Virus record (IMG/VR): IMGVR_UViG_3300025120_000158
Coordinates: 1 to 40,453 of that record
DNA: 40,453 nucleotides
Origin: a virus
Reading direction: 5' to 3' (one strand)
In this document: piece by piece, positions 5,676 through 21,274 of the stretch
Layout of the letters: the number at the start of each line of letters is the position of its first letter
How positions within the stretch are numbered: position 1 is the first letter of the stretch
The notes under the pieces: generated by a model
The model's database searches: none
What the model was told of the DNA's origin: nothing
The model's input: the letters and a program-made list of their open reading frames with translations, nothing else
Translations under genes and position numbers: made by a program

Positions 5676-6451
5676 GATTTAACCTTTAATAATTGTTCAT
5701 ACTGTTTCCAGCACTGCGTAGGTGTTAGGGACTCGGACATTCCACGCAGAGCAATTGCCATGCCCTTCTGATAGTCATGTTTCAGTAGGCCAGGAGCATC
5801 AAAATTATTATTAATTGCTTGCCAAGAATCAAATATCAATTTTTGTGATTGTCTCCATTTCTCATATCTTTGCCCGTTGTATCTTATTCCAAACTTGTCG
5901 AATTCTTTGACAGCGTCATTGATGCTTTCGTACATAGAGCCAAATGAAAAATATTGATCACATAGTAACGACTGCTTGACATCTATGAACTCATTGTCAT
6001 AGAGTTTGTAGGTCCACTCCATAACCGCTCTCTCTATAGGAAACTTGGTGTAGGGACTCCATGTTTGTCTTTGTTGCTGTTCCCACTCTTTGCTAAAGAT
6101 CCGATCAGTGTCATCCATTGCGTTGATCCTAAGTTTCTCTTGCCAATTTATTAACATACATTCTCTGTGGCTGTCTATTATTATTTGTATGACATTGATT
6201 CCAAACCTTTTGAACAAGGTATACAAGTCTGCATTCCACTTTGAAGCGAAACAGACCATGAACAAGGGATCATCGTTTTTGATCAAATGGTCTATCCTAT
6301 CGTGTGACATGTTGGAGATGTCCACAACATTGACCCCACCATGTGTTCCCTGATTGTGATATGCTAAATTGTCCTGTGGTTGCCTGTTGACCAATGTTAG
6401 GCCTATGTAGTTGTGATTGGATCCAGAGTTACCTATTAAAACAAACATCAA
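5672..6451 (-). CDS. Unknown protein, possible distant sulfotransferase-like P-loop fold
   Basis: 259 residues, not confidently recognised. The N-terminal FVLIGNSGSNHNYIG is glycine/serine rich after a hydrophobic strand, and GINVIQIIIDSHRECMLINW near residue 85-105 has the same layout (strand, charged turn, helix ending in W) as the 3'-phosphate segment of the sulfotransferase-like genes at 4755 and 17513. No canonical Arg-Asp-Pro motif is present. It lies between the sulfotransferase-like gene and the radical SAM gene with 4-base overlaps on both sides, so it probably acts in the same pathway. Confidence 0.45.
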   Translation of the reverse strand: MMFVLIGNSGSNHNYIGLTLVNRQPQDNLAYHNQGTHGGVNVVDISNMSHDRIDHLIKNDDPLFMVCFASKWNADLYTLFKRFGINVIQIIIDSHRECMLINWQEKLRINAMDDTDRIFSKEWEQQQRQTWSPYTKFPIERAVMEWTYKLYDNEFIDVKQSLLCDQYFSFGSMYESINDAVKEFDKFGIRYNGQRYEKWRQSQKLIFDSWQAINNNFDAPGLLKHDYQKGMAIALRGMSESLTPTQCWKQYEQLLKVKS

Positions 6452-7722
6452 TCTAAATCACTTTTTCGTTTATCTTCTATCTCTGCGGCCAACTCGGGAA
6501 GTAATACCCTCCAAGTCTTTGGTACTTTACGGAATTGATCTTGCCGGTCGTTGTACTTGACGAATGCCTTCTGTAATTCTTTATACTTCTCTGGAGTGTG
6601 TTGATCTATCCTTAATTCTTTTATGATGTTTTCATAAAACTGGTCAAACTTATATTTTGATAGTTTATCTGCCACCCGTAATCTCCACTCACGTGGTGCC
6701 ATATTGGGATTGCATATGAGTGGATACCACACCGTGGCCAGCCAAGTGAACCCGTATCTGTCGTTCAGCTCTCCGCCACACCAATCCAACCACCATTTTA
6801 TTATATCGTCCAGTTGATCGATGTTCAGTAATTGGACAGCAGGACTCAAAGTGATGTTACCGTTGTCTCCTAACATGCTCTTGTAGAAATTCAAACTCTG
6901 TAACGCTTTGTTCCAGTTACTCGGATACCTTATATATTCTGTCCTTTCACCAAGTCCGTCCACACTGGCCCATATAGTCCAGCACTTCAGTTTTGGCAAC
7001 CAGTTGGTCAGTTTTGGGTTGGTGTTTGTAAGGTTGGTTACGATTGTGACATCTTTTGTTCCTAGTGTACCTCTCTGATCACAATATTCAAACAGTTCAT
7101 AGAACTCCGGGATCAGTGTTGGCTCTCCGCCTATCACATTTAGTTGCTTAATATTCTTACTGATGTGTTCAAACATCTTTTCTTTTGTAGCAGTATTTTT
7201 GTACCACTCCTGTTTGATACCTAGCTCGTTGGTCCAGTTATTCACATTGGCACCTTGCTCCTTTACCCAGTGTAACCATTCTGGATCTTGTTCTCCGATG
7301 TCTCTGGTTTCCATACCGTGCATGTGACTATACATTTGGCTACACATTTTACATTTCAGGTTACATATATTACCCATCTGTATCTGCATGGTGTCAGCAC
7401 TTTTTTGGAAGGTGCCATCAGGCAGTGTATCTTTGATGTAGTCCTCCATGCCTTGTGTTGATCTTAGGCTTTGTGCTCCTTTTTCCTCCTGTTGGTAGCA
7501 CTTCGCACAGTCACGTATCTTCTCACCGGCTATCATCTTCCTACGTATCTCTTTCATCCTGTTGCTATTCCAGTAGTCATTGATAGTGTGCTTTTTGGCG
7601 TCAAACAGGTTGTATTTGTTGTCAGTAGGTATGTCCTGTAACGTTGTACAGCACAATCGCATCTTGCCGTTGGGGTGTATGTAATTGTGATTGAAAGGTT
7701 TTTCACAGAATACTTTACTCAT
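6448..7722 (-). CDS. Radical SAM protein with N-terminal SPASM/twitch-like cysteine region
   Basis: 424 residues. C120-NLK-C124-KM-C127 is the CxxxCxxC motif that holds the radical SAM [4Fe-4S] cluster. NVIGGEPTL further on is the usual GGEP motif for SAM binding. Unusually, SPASM-like cysteines lie before the core: Cys6 (FCEKPF), Cys24-Cys25 (GKMRLCCTT) and Cys72/Cys75 (DCAKCYQQ), which could hold an auxiliary Fe-S cluster. SPASM proteins usually modify peptides or sugars, with the extra cluster C-terminal. The gene abuts the peroxidase-like gene upstream (stop and start share one base) and overlaps the next gene by 4 bases. The substrate is unknown. Confidence 0.85.
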   Translation of the reverse strand: MSKVFCEKPFNHNYIHPNGKMRLCCTTLQDIPTDNKYNLFDAKKHTINDYWNSNRMKEIRRKMIAGEKIRDCAKCYQQEEKGAQSLRSTQGMEDYIKDTLPDGTFQKSADTMQIQMGNICNLKCKMCSQMYSHMHGMETRDIGEQDPEWLHWVKEQGANVNNWTNELGIKQEWYKNTATKEKMFEHISKNIKQLNVIGGEPTLIPEFYELFEYCDQRGTLGTKDVTIVTNLTNTNPKLTNWLPKLKCWTIWASVDGLGERTEYIRYPSNWNKALQSLNFYKSMLGDNGNITLSPAVQLLNIDQLDDIIKWWLDWCGGELNDRYGFTWLATVWYPLICNPNMAPREWRLRVADKLSKYKFDQFYENIIKELRIDQHTPEKYKELQKAFVKYNDRQDQFRKVPKTWRVLLPELAAEIEDKRKSDLD

Positions 7723-12881: not shown

Positions 12882-13499
12882 TTACGATTTTAGCCAGACT
12901 TCGTCACTTTTGGTACGTTTTTGGAACTTGTAGCCTAGATCTTTCAGTATTGCTTCACACTTTTGTGTAATGTTGTTTCTCTTGTCTCTTTTCATTTCAA
13001 TATTGATAACTGGATTATTCTTGGTCAATGTCTCCCTTGCACCATTCAACAATGGTACTTCGAATCCGTCAACGTCTATCTTTACGAAGTCCACATTGGT
13101 CAGTGCAAAACTGTCAAGCGTCCTGCAATCAATATCTCCATCTTCATTTTGTAACACAGTTGAATTGAAGCCTTGTTTTGCCTTGTGTTCCTTGTCCGAC
13201 AATCCGATAGGCCAAAGTAAGACATTGTTCTCGTCGATGTTCTTGTTGAAGCACTCCCTGAAGTTGGGATTTGGTTCGAAGCAAACTACACTTTCAAACT
13301 TGCTACAAAGTGGTCTCGTCCACTGTCCTATGTTGCTACCTATGTCTAGACACACCCGCCATTGTTTGATATATTTCAGTGCGGCATCTCTTTGAAGTCG
13401 TTGCCCGTTGCCGGCATCGTCCAGGAAGGTCGGTTTGTCGTGCTGTCCATACAGCACCCAGAAACTACTTTCGTTCGGCACCACACTCCTTGCAGTCAC
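12882..13499 (-). CDS. FkbM-family SAM-dependent methyltransferase
   Basis: Up to 205 residues. CLDIGSNIGQWT is the SAM-binding glycine motif I, VVCFEPNPNF is motif II, and VDFVKIDVDGFEVPLLNGARETL is the diagnostic FkbM block. The family O-methylates sugars and other small molecules, consistent with glycan modification. The longest frame starts with GTG at 13499; other GTG codons at 13484 and 13481 are possible because AAGGAG occurs nearby. The 5' end overlaps the cysteine-rich mini-gene by 35 bases or less, so translation may be coupled to it. Confidence 0.85.
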   Translation of the reverse strand: MTARSVVPNESSFWVLYGQHDKPTFLDDAGNGQRLQRDAALKYIKQWRVCLDIGSNIGQWTRPLCSKFESVVCFEPNPNFRECFNKNIDENNVLLWPIGLSDKEHKAKQGFNSTVLQNEDGDIDCRTLDSFALTNVDFVKIDVDGFEVPLLNGARETLTKNNPVINIEMKRDKRNNITQKCEAILKDLGYKFQKRTKSDEVWLKS

Positions 13500-13581
13500 A
13501 GTCAGGACAGTCTAGGCACTCGCCACAAGATCGTCCACAATGTTGTTCGCACTCGCACTTCTCACAGATATATTTGATCAT
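13465..13581 (-). CDS. 10-cysteine mini-protein B (metallothionein-like)
   Basis: 38 residues, beginning MIKYICEKCECEQHC and ending in KECGAERK. Cysteines are at 6, 9, 11, 15, 19, 22, 25, 28, 30 and 33, that is C-x2-C-x-C-x3-C-x3-C-x2-C-x2-C-x2-C-x-C-x2-C. The spacing is the same as in mini-protein A upstream, though most other residues differ. The start ATG lies 2 bases after the TGA of A, in another frame. Ten Cys in 38 residues suggests metal or Fe-S binding. No close named family is recognised. Confidence 0.7.
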   Translation of the reverse strand: MIKYICEKCECEQHCGRSCGECLDCPDCDCKECGAERK

Positions 13582-13583
13582 GG

Positions 13584-13706
13584 TCAAGATGGCCTGCCCA
13601 GGCATTTGTTACAGTCACAGTGATCACAATTCTCACAGTTGGAGCATTTTTTATCACAGTGTGGATTGCAGGCACACCTATGACAGATTTTTCTTTGTTC
13701 TTTCAT
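13584..13706 (-). CDS. 10-cysteine mini-protein A (metallothionein-like)
   Basis: 40 residues, beginning MKEQRKICHRCACNPHC and ending NKCLGRPS. Cysteines are at 8, 11, 13, 17, 21, 24, 27, 30, 32 and 35, with three His between them. The start codon overlaps the TAA stop of the upstream gene (TAATG at 13704-13708), a common translational-coupling arrangement in this genome. The exact match of cysteine spacing with mini-protein B argues that both are real genes from a duplication. Metal binding is inferred. Confidence 0.7.
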   Translation of the reverse strand: MKEQRKICHRCACNPHCDKKCSNCENCDHCDCNKCLGRPS

Positions 13707-14266
13707 TATAGTTCCTTGAATTTTTTTAGAATGTCAGTGTTGGGCAGTTTAGATTGTAGTTGTTGTTGCAGTCTGTGTAGGGTCTGCATCTTCATTTTTG
13801 AATTCAACTTGTTGTAGTTGGCCACTGCTCGCCTAATGTTCTTTAAATTAGCATCTTTGATATTTAGAGATCTCTCTAGGTGTGTCAAGTTCTTGTAATG
13901 ATCTTCCCAACTTCTCAGATATCTTCTCAGTGCCATCACAGGCACGGGTTGTCTCTGCCTCATGGCTTGAGCTTCGTCCTTGTTCTTTAGTTTCTTGGTA
14001 ATTTCTGGATCACCTGACACTATGGCCAACATGTTGGACAGATCATTGTTGATCATCCTCACTTGGTCGAATGTGCCTTTCGCCATGGTTTGTTGTGCGT
14101 AATCTTTAGCGAACTGCTGTGTGCCCTTGTTCTGACTCATCAGTGCCAGTGCTAGGAAACTTAGATATATCCTCTCTGTAACCTCTGGGAAAGTGAATCT
14201 CTGCAAGTCACTATGCCGTCTTATTACCTTGCCCTCAGATACATACTTTAAAAATGGTGTTAACAT
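13706..14266 (-). CDS. Unknown helical late protein
   Basis: 186 residues from the ATG at 14266 (MLTPFLKYVSEGKVIRR). A longer open frame upstream is rejected because it would cross a perfect late promoter box and the divergent gene. The protein is almost all helical and basic, with a Gln/Leu/Lys-rich C-terminus (QTLHRLQQQLQSKLPN). No enzymatic motif is seen. It heads the small unit with the cysteine-rich mini-proteins and FkbM gene. Confidence 0.62.
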   Translation of the reverse strand: MLTPFLKYVSEGKVIRRHSDLQRFTFPEVTERIYLSFLALALMSQNKGTQQFAKDYAQQTMAKGTFDQVRMINNDLSNMLAIVSGDPEITKKLKNKDEAQAMRQRQPVPVMALRRYLRSWEDHYKNLTHLERSLNIKDANLKNIRRAVANYNKLNSKMKMQTLHRLQQQLQSKLPNTDILKKFKEL

Positions 14267-14271
14267 ATAGG

Positions 14272-14279
14272 TATTTATA
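14272..14279 (-). promoter_or_regulatory. T4 late promoter, perfect consensus TATAAATA
   Basis: The minus-strand TATAAATA ends exactly 5 bases before the ATG at 14266 (TATAAATACCTATATG). With T4 late geometry the A of the ATG would be +1, so the mRNA would be leaderless. Confidence 0.75.
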
Positions 14280-14285
14280 GGGCTT

Positions 14286-15329
14286 ATGCAACGAAACTTT
14301 ATTCTAACAGACGTAATGAAGACCGGGGACCATTCCAAACTAGAACAATTTATTAATTTACACAGTTTACCGGAACAGACCGTTGATGTCACAGGAGAAT
14401 ATTACACACTCCACACTCATGATCTCGACAGTTATGACAGGAAGTTTGCAGTAATAGATTCAAACTCGTTGCCAAAACAAGATTTACTAACAAGCAACAA
14501 AGAATTTGTTCCAGAACTAAAAAGGCGTTGTGATTTGTTACACAGTCAGGGTTTTGTTTTTATAAAGGCCAACCCATGGGAGTCACTAGATAACATAAAA
14601 AATACAAAACAGTATCCGGAGTTTGATATTGAACATATAAAATGGACAGGAGGCGTGTCATGGTTTTGGTTCTACATGTATCAAAAACATAAAGACACAA
14701 AATTCAACTTTGACCACTCTGACAAAAAATACGATTTCTTATATCTTAACAAGATGCCCAGAGCACACAGATTAAAACTGTACAACAAGTTGAAGAACAA
14801 GGGTGTGTTAGAAAATAGTTTGCACACCAAATGGCCAGACAGGAAACTGCCTGCCGAATATGAATTGCCATGGGCACCAGACTATCCGCATTATGGAATG
14901 GATCAAGACATATTTGAGAAGCCATACAACGACACTGCCTGTAGCATTGTTTCAGAGACCAACGACAACGACAACGATGTGTTCATGACAGAGAAAATAT
15001 GGAAACCCATCATAGCACAACAGATATTTGTCGTGCATGGCAACTATCTATACCTGCAGAAGTTGAGAGAAATGGGATTCAAGACATACAACAACTACTT
15101 TGAAGAAGCATATGATATAGATAGAGATCCAAATTTGAGGATTGATACTATTGTAGATGTGTGTGATAGGTTACGTGATGCTCCATGGCAGGACTTATAC
15201 TTACAAAGTAAAGCACTGAGGCAGTATAACTTCAATCACTTTTTCAACGAAGAGAAGTTGAGTTTAGAAATAAACAAAACTCTTAATTTATTTTTTGAAT
15301 TTGCTGATACCCGTCAAGTTTCTTCTTGA
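14286..15329 (+). CDS. Glycosyltransferase-like protein (GT10/fucosyltransferase-type C-terminal domain)
   Basis: 347 residues on the opposite strand to its neighbours. CSIVSETNDNDNDVFMTEKIWKPI, then QQIFVVHGNYLYLQKLREMGFKTY and an acidic-Tyr-Asp segment (FEEAYDIDRD) follow the pattern of GT10-like nucleotide-sugar transferases (SET...TEK...KPI...L..LR..GFKT...E.YD). The N-terminal half is variable, as expected for an acceptor domain. It would transfer a sugar to a glycan or virion protein. A related protein is at 25849. The last 42 bases overlap the convergent gene at 15288. A promoter was not recognised. Confidence 0.68.
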   Translation: MQRNFILTDVMKTGDHSKLEQFINLHSLPEQTVDVTGEYYTLHTHDLDSYDRKFAVIDSNSLPKQDLLTSNKEFVPELKRRCDLLHSQGFVFIKANPWESLDNIKNTKQYPEFDIEHIKWTGGVSWFWFYMYQKHKDTKFNFDHSDKKYDFLYLNKMPRAHRLKLYNKLKNKGVLENSLHTKWPDRKLPAEYELPWAPDYPHYGMDQDIFEKPYNDTACSIVSETNDNDNDVFMTEKIWKPIIAQQIFVVHGNYLYLQKLREMGFKTYNNYFEEAYDIDRDPNLRIDTIVDVCDRLRDAPWQDLYLQSKALRQYNFNHFFNEEKLSLEINKTLNLFFEFADTRQVSS

Positions 15330-18082: not shown

Positions 18083-18771
18083 TACAATTTTATTATATTG
18101 TTTGGTATTGATAGTAATTTATAAGTCTTTTCAGTAGCAACGCCAGTCACCAATAGATTTGATCTTGGTCCTTGTCCTGCGTTTGCTGTGCAGTGTGGAA
18201 CATTGTACCAGTCGAAAGTGTATATCTCACCTGCCTTGTATCCTGCAAGGAAATGATTCCCAAACTGCATGAAGTGGCCTGGTTGCCAATCTTCTAACAT
18301 CACAAAAAATCTATACACACTGTCGATGTCGTTGGGTGCCCATCTTTGCACAGCGTCTATGTGAGTAGTCCATACCTGTGTTGGCCACTGTACGTGGACA
18401 CGTGCTTGTATTTCACGTTCACCCGCTTTGAGATGCAACGAGTCTGCCATTTTCTGGAACACTGGCGACAGTTCGTAATCCATGTTGCCTATAGGATGTT
18501 TGGGATCGCCACCAACCCTCTCGATGTCTCTTTCCTCTGCCTCTATGTCTACGCTACTGCCTTGTTTGGTGTATTTGCTTTTGTCATCTGGGTTCCTAGT
18601 CCTCCATGTGACTTCCTTGCTTCTTTCTTGTGTCTGTGTCAACTCAGCACTCCAGTCTCCTTCGAACCTACCCACGTACCTCATGGTGTCGTGGGCAGGG
18701 TTATGATCGAAAGGATCGAAATGATAATTTGATCTTTTCTTTAGTGCGTCGTACTTGCTCTTGTTATTCAT
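18082..18771 (-). CDS. 2-oxoglutarate/Fe(II) dioxygenase, aspartyl-hydroxylase-like
   Basis: 229 residues from the ATG at 18771; a TTG two codons earlier is less likely. THIDAVQ gives the His137-x-Asp139 iron pair, WYNVPHCTANAG gives His193, and GPRSNLLVTG gives Arg203, which would hold 2-oxoglutarate. The core between (RFFVMLEDWQPGHFMQFGNHFLAGYKAGEIYTFDW) is a typical jelly-roll. These enzymes hydroxylate proteins or small molecules. A late-type box lies 6 bases before the start, inside the end of the transporter receptor gene. Confidence 0.82.
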   Translation of the reverse strand: MNNKSKYDALKKRSNYHFDPFDHNPAHDTMRYVGRFEGDWSAELTQTQERSKEVTWRTRNPDDKSKYTKQGSSVDIEAEERDIERVGGDPKHPIGNMDYELSPVFQKMADSLHLKAGEREIQARVHVQWPTQVWTTHIDAVQRWAPNDIDSVYRFFVMLEDWQPGHFMQFGNHFLAGYKAGEIYTFDWYNVPHCTANAGQGPRSNLLVTGVATEKTYKLLSIPNNIIKL

Positions 18772-19819
18772 TAACAATATTTATTTTGTACTCCACCTTG
18801 TGTCCTAAAGAATTTTTAGTGAAGTCTATCAGCGTCTTGTATGCTGATTCAGTAACCAATGACATCACGACATCTAAATGCCTGTTGCCATCTTCACCGA
18901 TAATCCATCCGTAATTGCCGATCTTTTTTTGTATTGCTTTGACGCTGTCAGGATTGCTGGCCACTTGTTCCAATGCATTCCTTAGGGTCTCTGCATGTTT
19001 GGATCCCTTGCTGATAAAGATCGCTTTCTGTATACCATCACGTATTGATTTGACCAACTTGTATGCATCGTAGAAGTCTCCACTAGGTGCGACGCCCCAT
19101 TTCTTTTCGAAAACTATCTCGAACTGGTATCCTGGAAAGTTTGGATCATCCTTGTGTTGTCCTGTTTCTGCATCAAGTATTCCATGATGGAACCATATCT
19201 CCGCCTTGCCTTCATCTATGACAGGTTTGATGTGTTTCTTGAATGCGGCAGGGTTCTCACGTGAACCTGTAGTTTCGCCCCTTTTGAAAGTAAGTCTGAA
19301 CTCGTTCTGTTTCATACCAGGCACCCAAGTCACCTTGTCCTTGAAACAAGACTTGTACTGTTCAACGTTCATGTCAGGTCCACACATAAGCATCGCAATG
19401 GCAAATGCCTCCGGTGCGTGTCCCAAGCCTTTTGGAAACACAGTTCCGTCTGTGCCGGTCCTCTTGGCGGCCACTATGTTCAAGTTCATTATTCCTATCG
19501 CATCGTAGTTGTAATCATAGACCACTTTAGGGTTGGTCAGGAACTTGATTGCGTTACCGCCACTTGTCGCCAACATCACTGTGTCGTCTTTTTGTAAATC
19601 CGTGTGCCAGTCGTTTGCACCTATGATGTTGCCTTTGCCTGGCAAGTGTTTCAATATTATCTCGCCGTCAATGTATTTGTTCATCTCGGTTGCGACTATC
19701 TGACTCCAGACACTCAACCCGCTACCAGGCTTGTTTGGCACAACCAATGTGTATTTTTCTGCCATTGTTGCTGTGGATAAACCTAACACCACCAACAATG
19801 AAATTATCATCTTCTTCAT
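18764..19819 (-). CDS. tctC: TctC/Bug-family periplasmic substrate-binding protein
   Basis: 351 residues with a signal peptide (MKKMIISLLVVLGLSTATMA, then EKYTLVVPNKPGSG). VPNKPGSGLSVWSQIVATEM and the following LKHLPGKGNIIGANDW correspond to the P-loop-like substrate contacts of tripartite tricarboxylate transporter receptors. The length is near the family norm (about 320) with an internal insert near 150-235 (GMKQNEFRLTFKRGETTG) that is unusual. It would capture a carboxylate in the periplasm and deliver it to TctA, which is encoded 15 bases upstream. A GGAG site precedes the ATG. The substrate is unknown. Confidence 0.82.
   Translation of the reverse strand: MKKMIISLLVVLGLSTATMAEKYTLVVPNKPGSGLSVWSQIVATEMNKYIDGEIILKHLPGKGNIIGANDWHTDLQKDDTVMLATSGGNAIKFLTNPKVVYDYNYDAIGIMNLNIVAAKRTGTDGTVFPKGLGHAPEAFAIAMLMCGPDMNVEQYKSCFKDKVTWVPGMKQNEFRLTFKRGETTGSRENPAAFKKHIKPVIDEGKAEIWFHHGILDAETGQHKDDPNFPGYQFEIVFEKKWGVAPSGDFYDAYKLVKSIRDGIQKAIFISKGSKHAETLRNALEQVASNPDSVKAIQKKIGNYGWIIGEDGNRHLDVVMSLVTESAYKTLIDFTKNSLGHKVEYKINIVNE
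18778..18785 (-). promoter_or_regulatory. T4-late-type promoter box (AATAAATA)
   Basis: The minus-strand box ends 6 bases before the ATG at 18771 and lies within the last codons of the TctC-like gene. There is no Shine-Dalgarno site between box and ATG. Confidence 0.55.
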
Positions 19820-19834
19820 ATTATCATTTTCTCC

Positions 19835-21274
19835 TTATGCATACTCAAGTTTGTTTTTTCTTGTTATTCCGTATACAAATAGACAAACCACAAATACCAG
19901 CAAGAGTATGAATAATGGTCTGTCAATTAGTCTGTCTATAGTATACAGGGAATTCAATTGCATTGTCAAGGCCTCAACCTTGCCAGCAAGTATAAATGCC
20001 ATCAGCATCGCTGGCCTGCTGAACTTGTATTTCTTGGCAAGTACACCAAGCACAGTGCAGAGTGCCAATACCACATAATCCTCAATGCCACCCGTGTGTT
20101 GCACACTGGCCCACACTATGAAAGCAACGATTATGGGAAAGTAATATTTGTATGGAACGTAAGTTATCATTGCGATATACTTGTTGAACACCAGACATAT
20201 TACACCAACGATCACAGTCGCCCACATGAAACCAAAAGTGAGGCTATTGAAAAATTTAGTGTCCTGTGCCAACTCGGGAGTGCCCAGTTCAAAACCAAGG
20301 TACATGAACAGAGCCATCAGTACCGCGGCGAAACTTGCACCAGGAATACCAAACAGTACAGTGGGTATCATGCTTGTGGCCTTCTGTGAGTTGTTAGCAC
20401 CCTCTGGTCCTATCACACCTCTTATATTGCCATTGCCAAACTTCTCAGTTGGGTTTGAAGCGACGGTGGCGCCATATGACATCCAGTCCGCCATTGCTCC
20501 GCCTATCCCTGGAAGTAGTCCAACGAACGCACCTATCCCTCCTCCTCGGAGTGCGTCCCACTTGCAACGCCAAACTTCTTTTATGCCAATTATTGTTTGT
20601 GCTGTGTCCTGATTCAGCCTCACTGTGGCTACCTGTCTGCCCCTACGCCATCCGTCAATGATTTCAGGGAAGGCAAACAAACCTGCCATGAAAGCAACCA
20701 TGGACACACCGTCACTCAGATAGTCCCATCCTAGCGTGAATCTATCTGCATTGGTGTCTGGGTGTACACCTATCAGTCCGATGAGTGTACCAATTACTAT
20801 TGCGATGATGCTACGGAACCAAAACTTGTTGCTTACGAATGCAACACAGGACAAACTCAACACAATGAACGCCCATAGTTCAGGCACACCAACAAACATT
20901 ATTACCTTGACATACCAAGGCAGTAGTGCAAATGTCAAAGTGCCCCATATCAATCCGTTCAACGTTGATGTCGTTATAGCGGCGGTGAGAGCAATGGTGG
21001 CCTTACCTTGTTTGGCCAATGGATGTCCGTCCACCATTGTTGCGGCCGCAGAATTGGCCCCAGGTATGCCCAAAAGCACACCACTAAAAGAATCACCAGT
21101 TGTGGATGAAGCGACAACTGCCACACAGAAGATAACTCCAAGATAAGGATCCATTCCCATAAAAAACGGAATGAATCCAAACAGTGCTATCAGTCCTGTT
21201 GTTGCTCCAGCGGCAGGTATAAGGCCAATGATTAAGCCATACACTACACCTGCGAGTAGTACAATTATTTCCAT
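19835..21274 (-). CDS. tctA: TctA-family large membrane subunit of tripartite tricarboxylate transporter
   Basis: 479 residues, essentially full family length, with about 11-12 membrane segments. IIGLIPAAGATTG, then GVLLGIPGANSAAATMVDGHPLAKQG and GIGAFVGLLPGIGGAMADWMSYG match the two conserved TctA repeats, and VLFGIPGASFAAVLMA is the second GIPG loop. It would carry substrate across the inner membrane using an ion gradient. A TctB-type small subunit is not encoded next to it on the same strand. The gene is intact with no frameshift. No convincing promoter was seen in 21275-21368. Confidence 0.9.
   Translation of the reverse strand: MEIIVLLAGVVYGLIIGLIPAAGATTGLIALFGFIPFFMGMDPYLGVIFCVAVVASSTTGDSFSGVLLGIPGANSAAATMVDGHPLAKQGKATIALTAAITTSTLNGLIWGTLTFALLPWYVKVIMFVGVPELWAFIVLSLSCVAFVSNKFWFRSIIAIVIGTLIGLIGVHPDTNADRFTLGWDYLSDGVSMVAFMAGLFAFPEIIDGWRRGRQVATVRLNQDTAQTIIGIKEVWRCKWDALRGGGIGAFVGLLPGIGGAMADWMSYGATVASNPTEKFGNGNIRGVIGPEGANNSQKATSMIPTVLFGIPGASFAAVLMALFMYLGFELGTPELAQDTKFFNSLTFGFMWATVIVGVICLVFNKYIAMITYVPYKYYFPIIVAFIVWASVQHTGGIEDYVVLALCTVLGVLAKKYKFSRPAMLMAFILAGKVEALTMQLNSLYTIDRLIDRPLFILLLVFVVCLFVYGITRKNKLEYA

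Follow-up and report, generated by a model that had tools for sequence, protein, structure and literature searches.

Twin mini-proteins with a conserved Cys10-His pattern, and their putative late expression and metallothionein-like role, in a probably marine phage lineage

Gene organization at the locus

The window analysed here, 40.5 kb in length, is in its entirety a genome fragment from an uncultured virus. Two adjacent mini-genes, encoding the proteins designated P1 and P2, lie on its minus strand within a late gene cluster:

14286-15329, plus strand: divergent 347-aa gene with no family match, marking the boundary of the conserved cassette
14272-14279, minus strand: T4-type late promoter, TATAAATA, at -13 relative to the start codon of the 186-aa gene
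13706-14266, minus strand: 186-aa late protein with no assigned function; its gene opens the transcription unit and is the conserved upstream neighbour
13584-13706, minus strand: P1 (type A), Cys10-His mini-protein of 40 aa, MKEQRKICHRCACNPHCDKKCSNCENCDHCDCNKCLGRPS
13465-13581, minus strand: P2 (type B), Cys10-His mini-protein of 38 aa, MIKYICEKCECEQHCGRSCGECLDCPDCDCKECGAERK
12882-13499, minus strand: FkbM-type SAM methyltransferase (PF05050, E 2.7e-15)

Both open reading frames, of 40 and 38 codons, are present as the first-pass annotation had described them. Its account of their junctions is also correct on the letters: the start of P1 overlaps the stop of the upstream 186-aa gene (TAATG), and P2 begins 2 nt past the P1 stop. 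An AAGGA Shine-Dalgarno-like site is found on the 5' side of P1. An in-frame ATG at 13605 would give an alternative P2 of 46 aa, but the 38-aa form is preferred because, in relatives that possess only the second gene, translation begins with MIKYI or an equivalent. The frame for FkbM runs into the 3' end of P2, and its start is uncertain, with GTG candidates near 13481-13499.

The nearest counterparts of the window's DUF6267 protein, at about 42% identity, belong to Pelagibacter phage HTVC008M and many T4-like cyanophages, and the window therefore likely derives from a T4-like marine phage. Other genes on its minus strand include a radical SAM protein with a SPASM domain in the late region (6448-7722), similar proteins of which recur in related contigs, and a UDP-glucose/GDP-mannose dehydrogenase (PF03721/PF00984; 24598-25800) whose likely role is the modification of surface glycans. 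At 18764-21274 on the minus strand, a gene for a TctA permease (PF01970, E 1.6e-96) adjoins one for a 351-aa signal-peptide protein that is putatively TctC-like by eye and has no Pfam match; together they may constitute a phage-carried tripartite tricarboxylate transporter of host type. A TctA gene was also found among the control open reading frames of related contigs.

Conservation of the ligand pattern

P1 and P2 share the spacing C-x2-C-x-C-x2-H-C-x3-C-x2-C-x2-C-x2-C-x-C-x2-C. The invariant histidine preceding the fourth cysteine was absent from the earlier description, which had reported identical spacing of the ten cysteines amid mostly different residues. That report is confirmed: all ten cysteine positions of the 28-residue cores are common to both proteins, and 2 of the 18 non-cysteine positions match, one of them being the histidine. 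With the end cysteines fixed, there are 1,562,275 possible placements of the eight inner cysteines, so the likelihood that P1 and P2 came to the same spacing by chance is negligible.

To avoid circularity, relatives of the locus (n = 80) were retrieved by the upstream 186-aa protein only, without use of the cysteine motif. Rather than the stop codons or lost cysteines that the first-pass annotation had named as evidence against these genes, 79 of the 80 relatives have one or more intact copies where these were expected, with type B only in 47, both types in 31, and type A only in one. The twin arrangement is thus a lineage feature, 47 of the 80 relatives keeping the second gene only. In four relatives of this set, the A copy has an extra residue between Cys4 and Cys5.

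Substitution patterns were compared among distinct sequences, 48 of type B and 17 of type A. At cysteine codons pN was 0 with pS of 0.76-0.82, at histidine codons pN was 0 with pS of 0.85-0.93, and across the whole core pN/pS was 0.08 (B) and 0.21 (A). The proposal that the cysteines are selected is borne out as strong purifying selection, and the combination of pN = 0 at ligand codons with intact open reading frames in 79 of 80 loci indicates that P1 and P2 are genuine, selected proteins.

Other properties of the family drift. Net charge among members ranges from -9 to +6, and 35 of 53 members (about two thirds) have no aromatic residue in the core; P1 and P2 themselves contain zero or one aromatic residue, 25-26% cysteine, ten cysteines within the 28-residue core, and two CxC motifs. 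Because the 11 ligands alone are conserved whereas charge and aromatic residues vary, selection probably acts on metal ligation itself, and the ligand set appears from these comparisons to be what is selected in the family.

Probable late expression

The octamer TATAAATA occurs twice in the window against 1.94 occurrences expected, which is not significant alone. Its position relative to the start codon of the 186-aa gene, exactly -13, is kept in 75 of the 80 relatives (L323-L402), in support of the earlier proposal that the mini-genes are co-transcribed from a late promoter. At four other loci (L019, L023, L068, and L265) the octamer is found at -13 of the cysteine-rich open reading frame itself, and a late-type promoter therefore drives the mini-gene there. 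The count of nucleotides from octamer to expected start suggests a leaderless late transcript in this phage group. Shine-Dalgarno-like motifs are present on the 5' side of 108 of 175 mini-genes of the family, compared with 11% of random sites.

Extent of the family

When IMG/VR was scanned for the exact spacing of ten TGY codons, with no histidine required, about 47 true members emerged alongside low-complexity sequences; all 47 true members possess the histidine (one low-complexity match left out). A scan requiring the histidine identified at least 119 contigs with at least 132 instances, at least 90 distinct cores, and at least 13 two-copy loci. Types A and B form a single open reading frame in L074. 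A half-motif scan that left Cys7 to Cys10 free revealed two sister subfamilies: type 2, in which xNDV replaces two residues between Cys6 and Cys7 and an extra N-terminal cysteine is often present, and the shorter type 3, which has CxCHC and a tail of the GCVGC type. The alignment of types 1 and 2 has 53 rows and 11 invariant ligand columns. Type 3 (CxxCxCxCHCxxxC..GCVGC) was seen in L404, L420, L422, L424, L430, L460, L461, and others; in L422, L424, and L460, apparently of a different phage group, its gene is followed by genes for a class I methyltransferase and GroES.

Standard searches did not recover this family. Neither Pfam nor NCBIfam has a metallothionein family or any other model matching P1, P2, or the scanned members, and a search of PHROGs at E up to 1 matched neither P1 nor P2 (the best for subtype members was E 1.3-6.9). 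A tblastn search of INPHARED (50,697 phage genomes) with P1, P2, and longer members returned nothing useful, probably owing to the low-complexity filter. In genome contigs the exact pattern was found only in low-complexity or poly-cysteine sequences among the matches listed. The half-motif had four matches and no true member in 398 Pseudomonadota genomes; by eye, these comprise a repeat, a match interrupted by an in-frame stop, and two that look spurious. Among the papers searched, no description of a phage metallothionein was found. The family may be one of the unnamed clusters in the small-gene survey of phage genomes by Fremin et al. in 2022. The family is widespread in uncultured phages and so far unnamed. 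Since tblastn found nothing while spacing-pattern scans gave more than 100 contigs, length-based gene calling and low-complexity filters evidently hide families of this sort.

Two proteins of cultured phages, both annotated as hypothetical, are apparent remote relatives. The family profile weakly matched AGE60383.1 of HTVC008M (40 aa, MNCDNCGHPSHCGTPLMKTNEGSEYEVCKHCRCEECTPKE; E 0.03), to which Mosig_00110 (QOI69074.1; 45 aa) of phage Mosig EXVC030M is 51% identical over 32 residues. In whole records of Mosig, Melnitz, and HTVC008M, the half-pattern had no match and the profile found HTVC008M only. Both proteins resemble the family in size, in a C-x2-C-G-x3-H/C-H/C-C front half, and in a C-x2-C-x-C tail, but differ from P1 and P2 in having fewer cysteines (about seven or eight), a longer linker, and a position a few genes to the 5' side of the baseplate wedge gp25 genes.

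A putative metal-thiolate cluster

Somewhat better than an even chance (roughly 0.55) is given to the reading that P1 and P2 belong to a phage-specific cytosolic family that wraps a small metal-thiolate cluster, is made late, and has a metallothionein-like function. The ten cysteines and one histidine would wrap a cluster of about four ions, most likely zinc (or copper or cadmium). Produced late in infection, when the proteome of the infected cell is dismantled, metals are released, and virions are assembled, the mini-proteins would take up, buffer, or hand over a thiophilic metal as metallothioneins do; late expression suggests such a role during host protein breakdown or virion building. A possible specialisation in this lineage would be that of a local metal donor or structural partner for FkbM. 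We infer metal binding by P1 and P2, its stoichiometry, the identity of the metal, and the buffering role from sequence.

The earlier suggestion of a metallothionein-like or metal-cluster pair is supported insofar as P1 and P2 are predicted to be metal-cluster proteins of metallothionein-like composition. They have the low mass, high cysteine content, CxC and CxxC motifs, and scarcity of aromatic residues of the metallothionein class, in which CxC and CxxC motifs are typical (PMC10119931). By homology, P1, P2, and the scanned members match no family in the libraries searched, including the bacterial metallothionein family (SmtA/BmtA, Metallothio_Pro). SmtA, whose core is Zn4Cys9His2, is likewise a small, cysteine-rich protein with CxC and CxxC motifs and a total of 11 cysteine and histidine ligands (PMC10119931). 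Ten cysteines and one histidine equal this ligand count, and a four-metal cluster is therefore the natural prediction. As in SmtA, a metal cluster that incorporates a zinc finger-like part is an established design. Buffering, storage, and donation of metal have been proposed for host metallothioneins; BmtA, of the same family as SmtA, is able to hold as many as four zinc ions and might provide enzymes with zinc (PMC9337993). In contrast to the 56-aa SmtA, with which it has no detectable sequence homology and whose cysteines are in a different order, the family has a 28-residue core in 38-40 aa, is phage-borne and not seen in the bacterial chromosomes sampled, and is controlled by a late phage promoter rather than by a metal sensor.

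Three observations count against the metallothionein-like reading: no metallothionein model or solved structure was matched significantly; the position amid virion and baseplate-region genes in several phages, like the FkbM fusion, is also compatible with a structural zinc domain; and reduced relatives, such as that of HTVC008M with seven cysteines, look more zinc finger-like than metallothionein-like.

Gene neighbourhood and a possible structural role

In relatives of the window, the gene order is the divergent 347-aa gene, the 186-aa gene, type A and/or type B, FkbM, and small late proteins. Of the 119 family loci among the matches listed, 85 have the divergent gene and 74 have FkbM (some truncated). 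L041 (reverse strand, 1642-2367) and L267 (5219-5944) each encode an in-frame fusion of an A-type domain with FkbM, a 242-aa protein with a single ATG. Elsewhere the neighbours include SNase, ferritin-like DUF5856, Methyltransf_24, GroES, radical SAM proteins, and glycosyl- and sulfotransferases.

The main rival explanation, to which a minority share of the probability is assigned, is that the mini-proteins are structural zinc-cluster adaptors with two to four zinc ions, serving as protein-protein modules for FkbM or for late or virion assembly proteins. Trm112-type zinc activators of methyltransferases offer a comparison. The overlap of FkbM with P2, the in-frame fusions, the position of types 1, 2, and 3 genes before a Methyltransf_24 gene, and the location of the cultured relatives just 5' of gp25 genes all fit such a module. 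However, intact cassettes that lack FkbM (L023, L037, L265, and L270) demonstrate that the family persists without it and that co-occurrence is not obligate, and almost no non-ligand residue is conserved, which leaves no conserved interface. At the level of lineages, a downstream methyltransferase was found in 2 of 29 family clusters, no more than among distant control clusters (at least 3 of 61), and a general methyltransferase partnership was therefore rejected. The FkbM linkage noted by the first-pass annotation thus holds within this lineage, where one natural fusion strengthens it, but does not extend to the family as a whole.

Structure prediction and other alternatives

For so short a protein, P2 is modelled by AlphaFold with good confidence (pLDDT 85, pTM 0.54), and the model matches no solved fold. 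The top results of the fold search were two viral predicted structures of 45 and 40 aa, neither significant; these lengths equal those of Mosig_00110 and AGE60383.1, a pairing made by length alone. A search of the PDB with the family profile gave nothing significant (best E 2.1), its weak top matches being the zinc knuckles of AIR2 and HIV NCp7 (E 2-7).

These matches, together with the exact fit of Cys1, Cys2, the histidine, and Cys5 (core positions 1, 4, 9, and 14) to C-x2-C-x4-H-x4-C, raise the improbable alternative of a nucleic-acid-binding protein derived from a CCHC zinc knuckle by addition of cysteines. AIR2 and NCp7 share this front-half spacing. With ten cysteines in 28 residues, a few percent of arrangements would place it around one histidine by chance. 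The family differs from such knuckles in possessing seven further invariant cysteines, of which Cys3 and Cys4, outside any knuckle, are equally invariant, and in lacking the expected conserved charge and aromatic residues. Nucleic-acid binding through conserved charge was rejected on the range of net charge. The drift of sequence outside the 11 ligands favours the metal-thiolate reading over a zinc knuckle.

Two weaker readings have lower probability still. A role as a carrier of iron-sulfur clusters, or as a small protein like ferredoxin, would account for the many cysteines, for the frame resembling the C-terminal iron-sulfur scaffold domain of NifU (by eye) that overlaps or follows a type 2 gene near position 1139 of L442 (reverse strand), and for the ferritin-like DUF5856 gene downstream in L252/L289, but these neighbours are confined to single lineages, no ferredoxin or other iron-sulfur family was matched, and an invariant HC-x3-C with two CxC motifs is unusual for iron-sulfur proteins. 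Least probable is a RiPP-like substrate of the adjacent FkbM or radical SAM enzymes, or a disulfide-rich secreted peptide: a small peptide does adjoin modifying enzymes and in L041 forms a fusion like that of substrate and enzyme, but there is no leader or signal-like segment, the conserved residues are ligands rather than modifiable residues, and the enzyme next door is absent in most lineages.

Implications for phage metal management

Trace-metal limitation of growth in oligotrophic oceans lends interest to how phages acquire and manage metals. In extension of the metallothionein-like reading of P1 and P2, aquatic tailed phages, including relatives of T4-like cyanophages and pelagiphages, might carry their own late-expressed, non-homologous metallothioneins that capture host zinc or copper as the proteome is broken down at the lysis stage, and carriage in virions or donation to phage enzymes may follow; this broader proposal is speculative. 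A widespread family in which metal ligands are the sole conserved residues, with apparent remote relatives in cultured pelagiphages, provides a directly testable handle. If the proposal is true, phages would have a direct part in the ocean's trace-metal economy.
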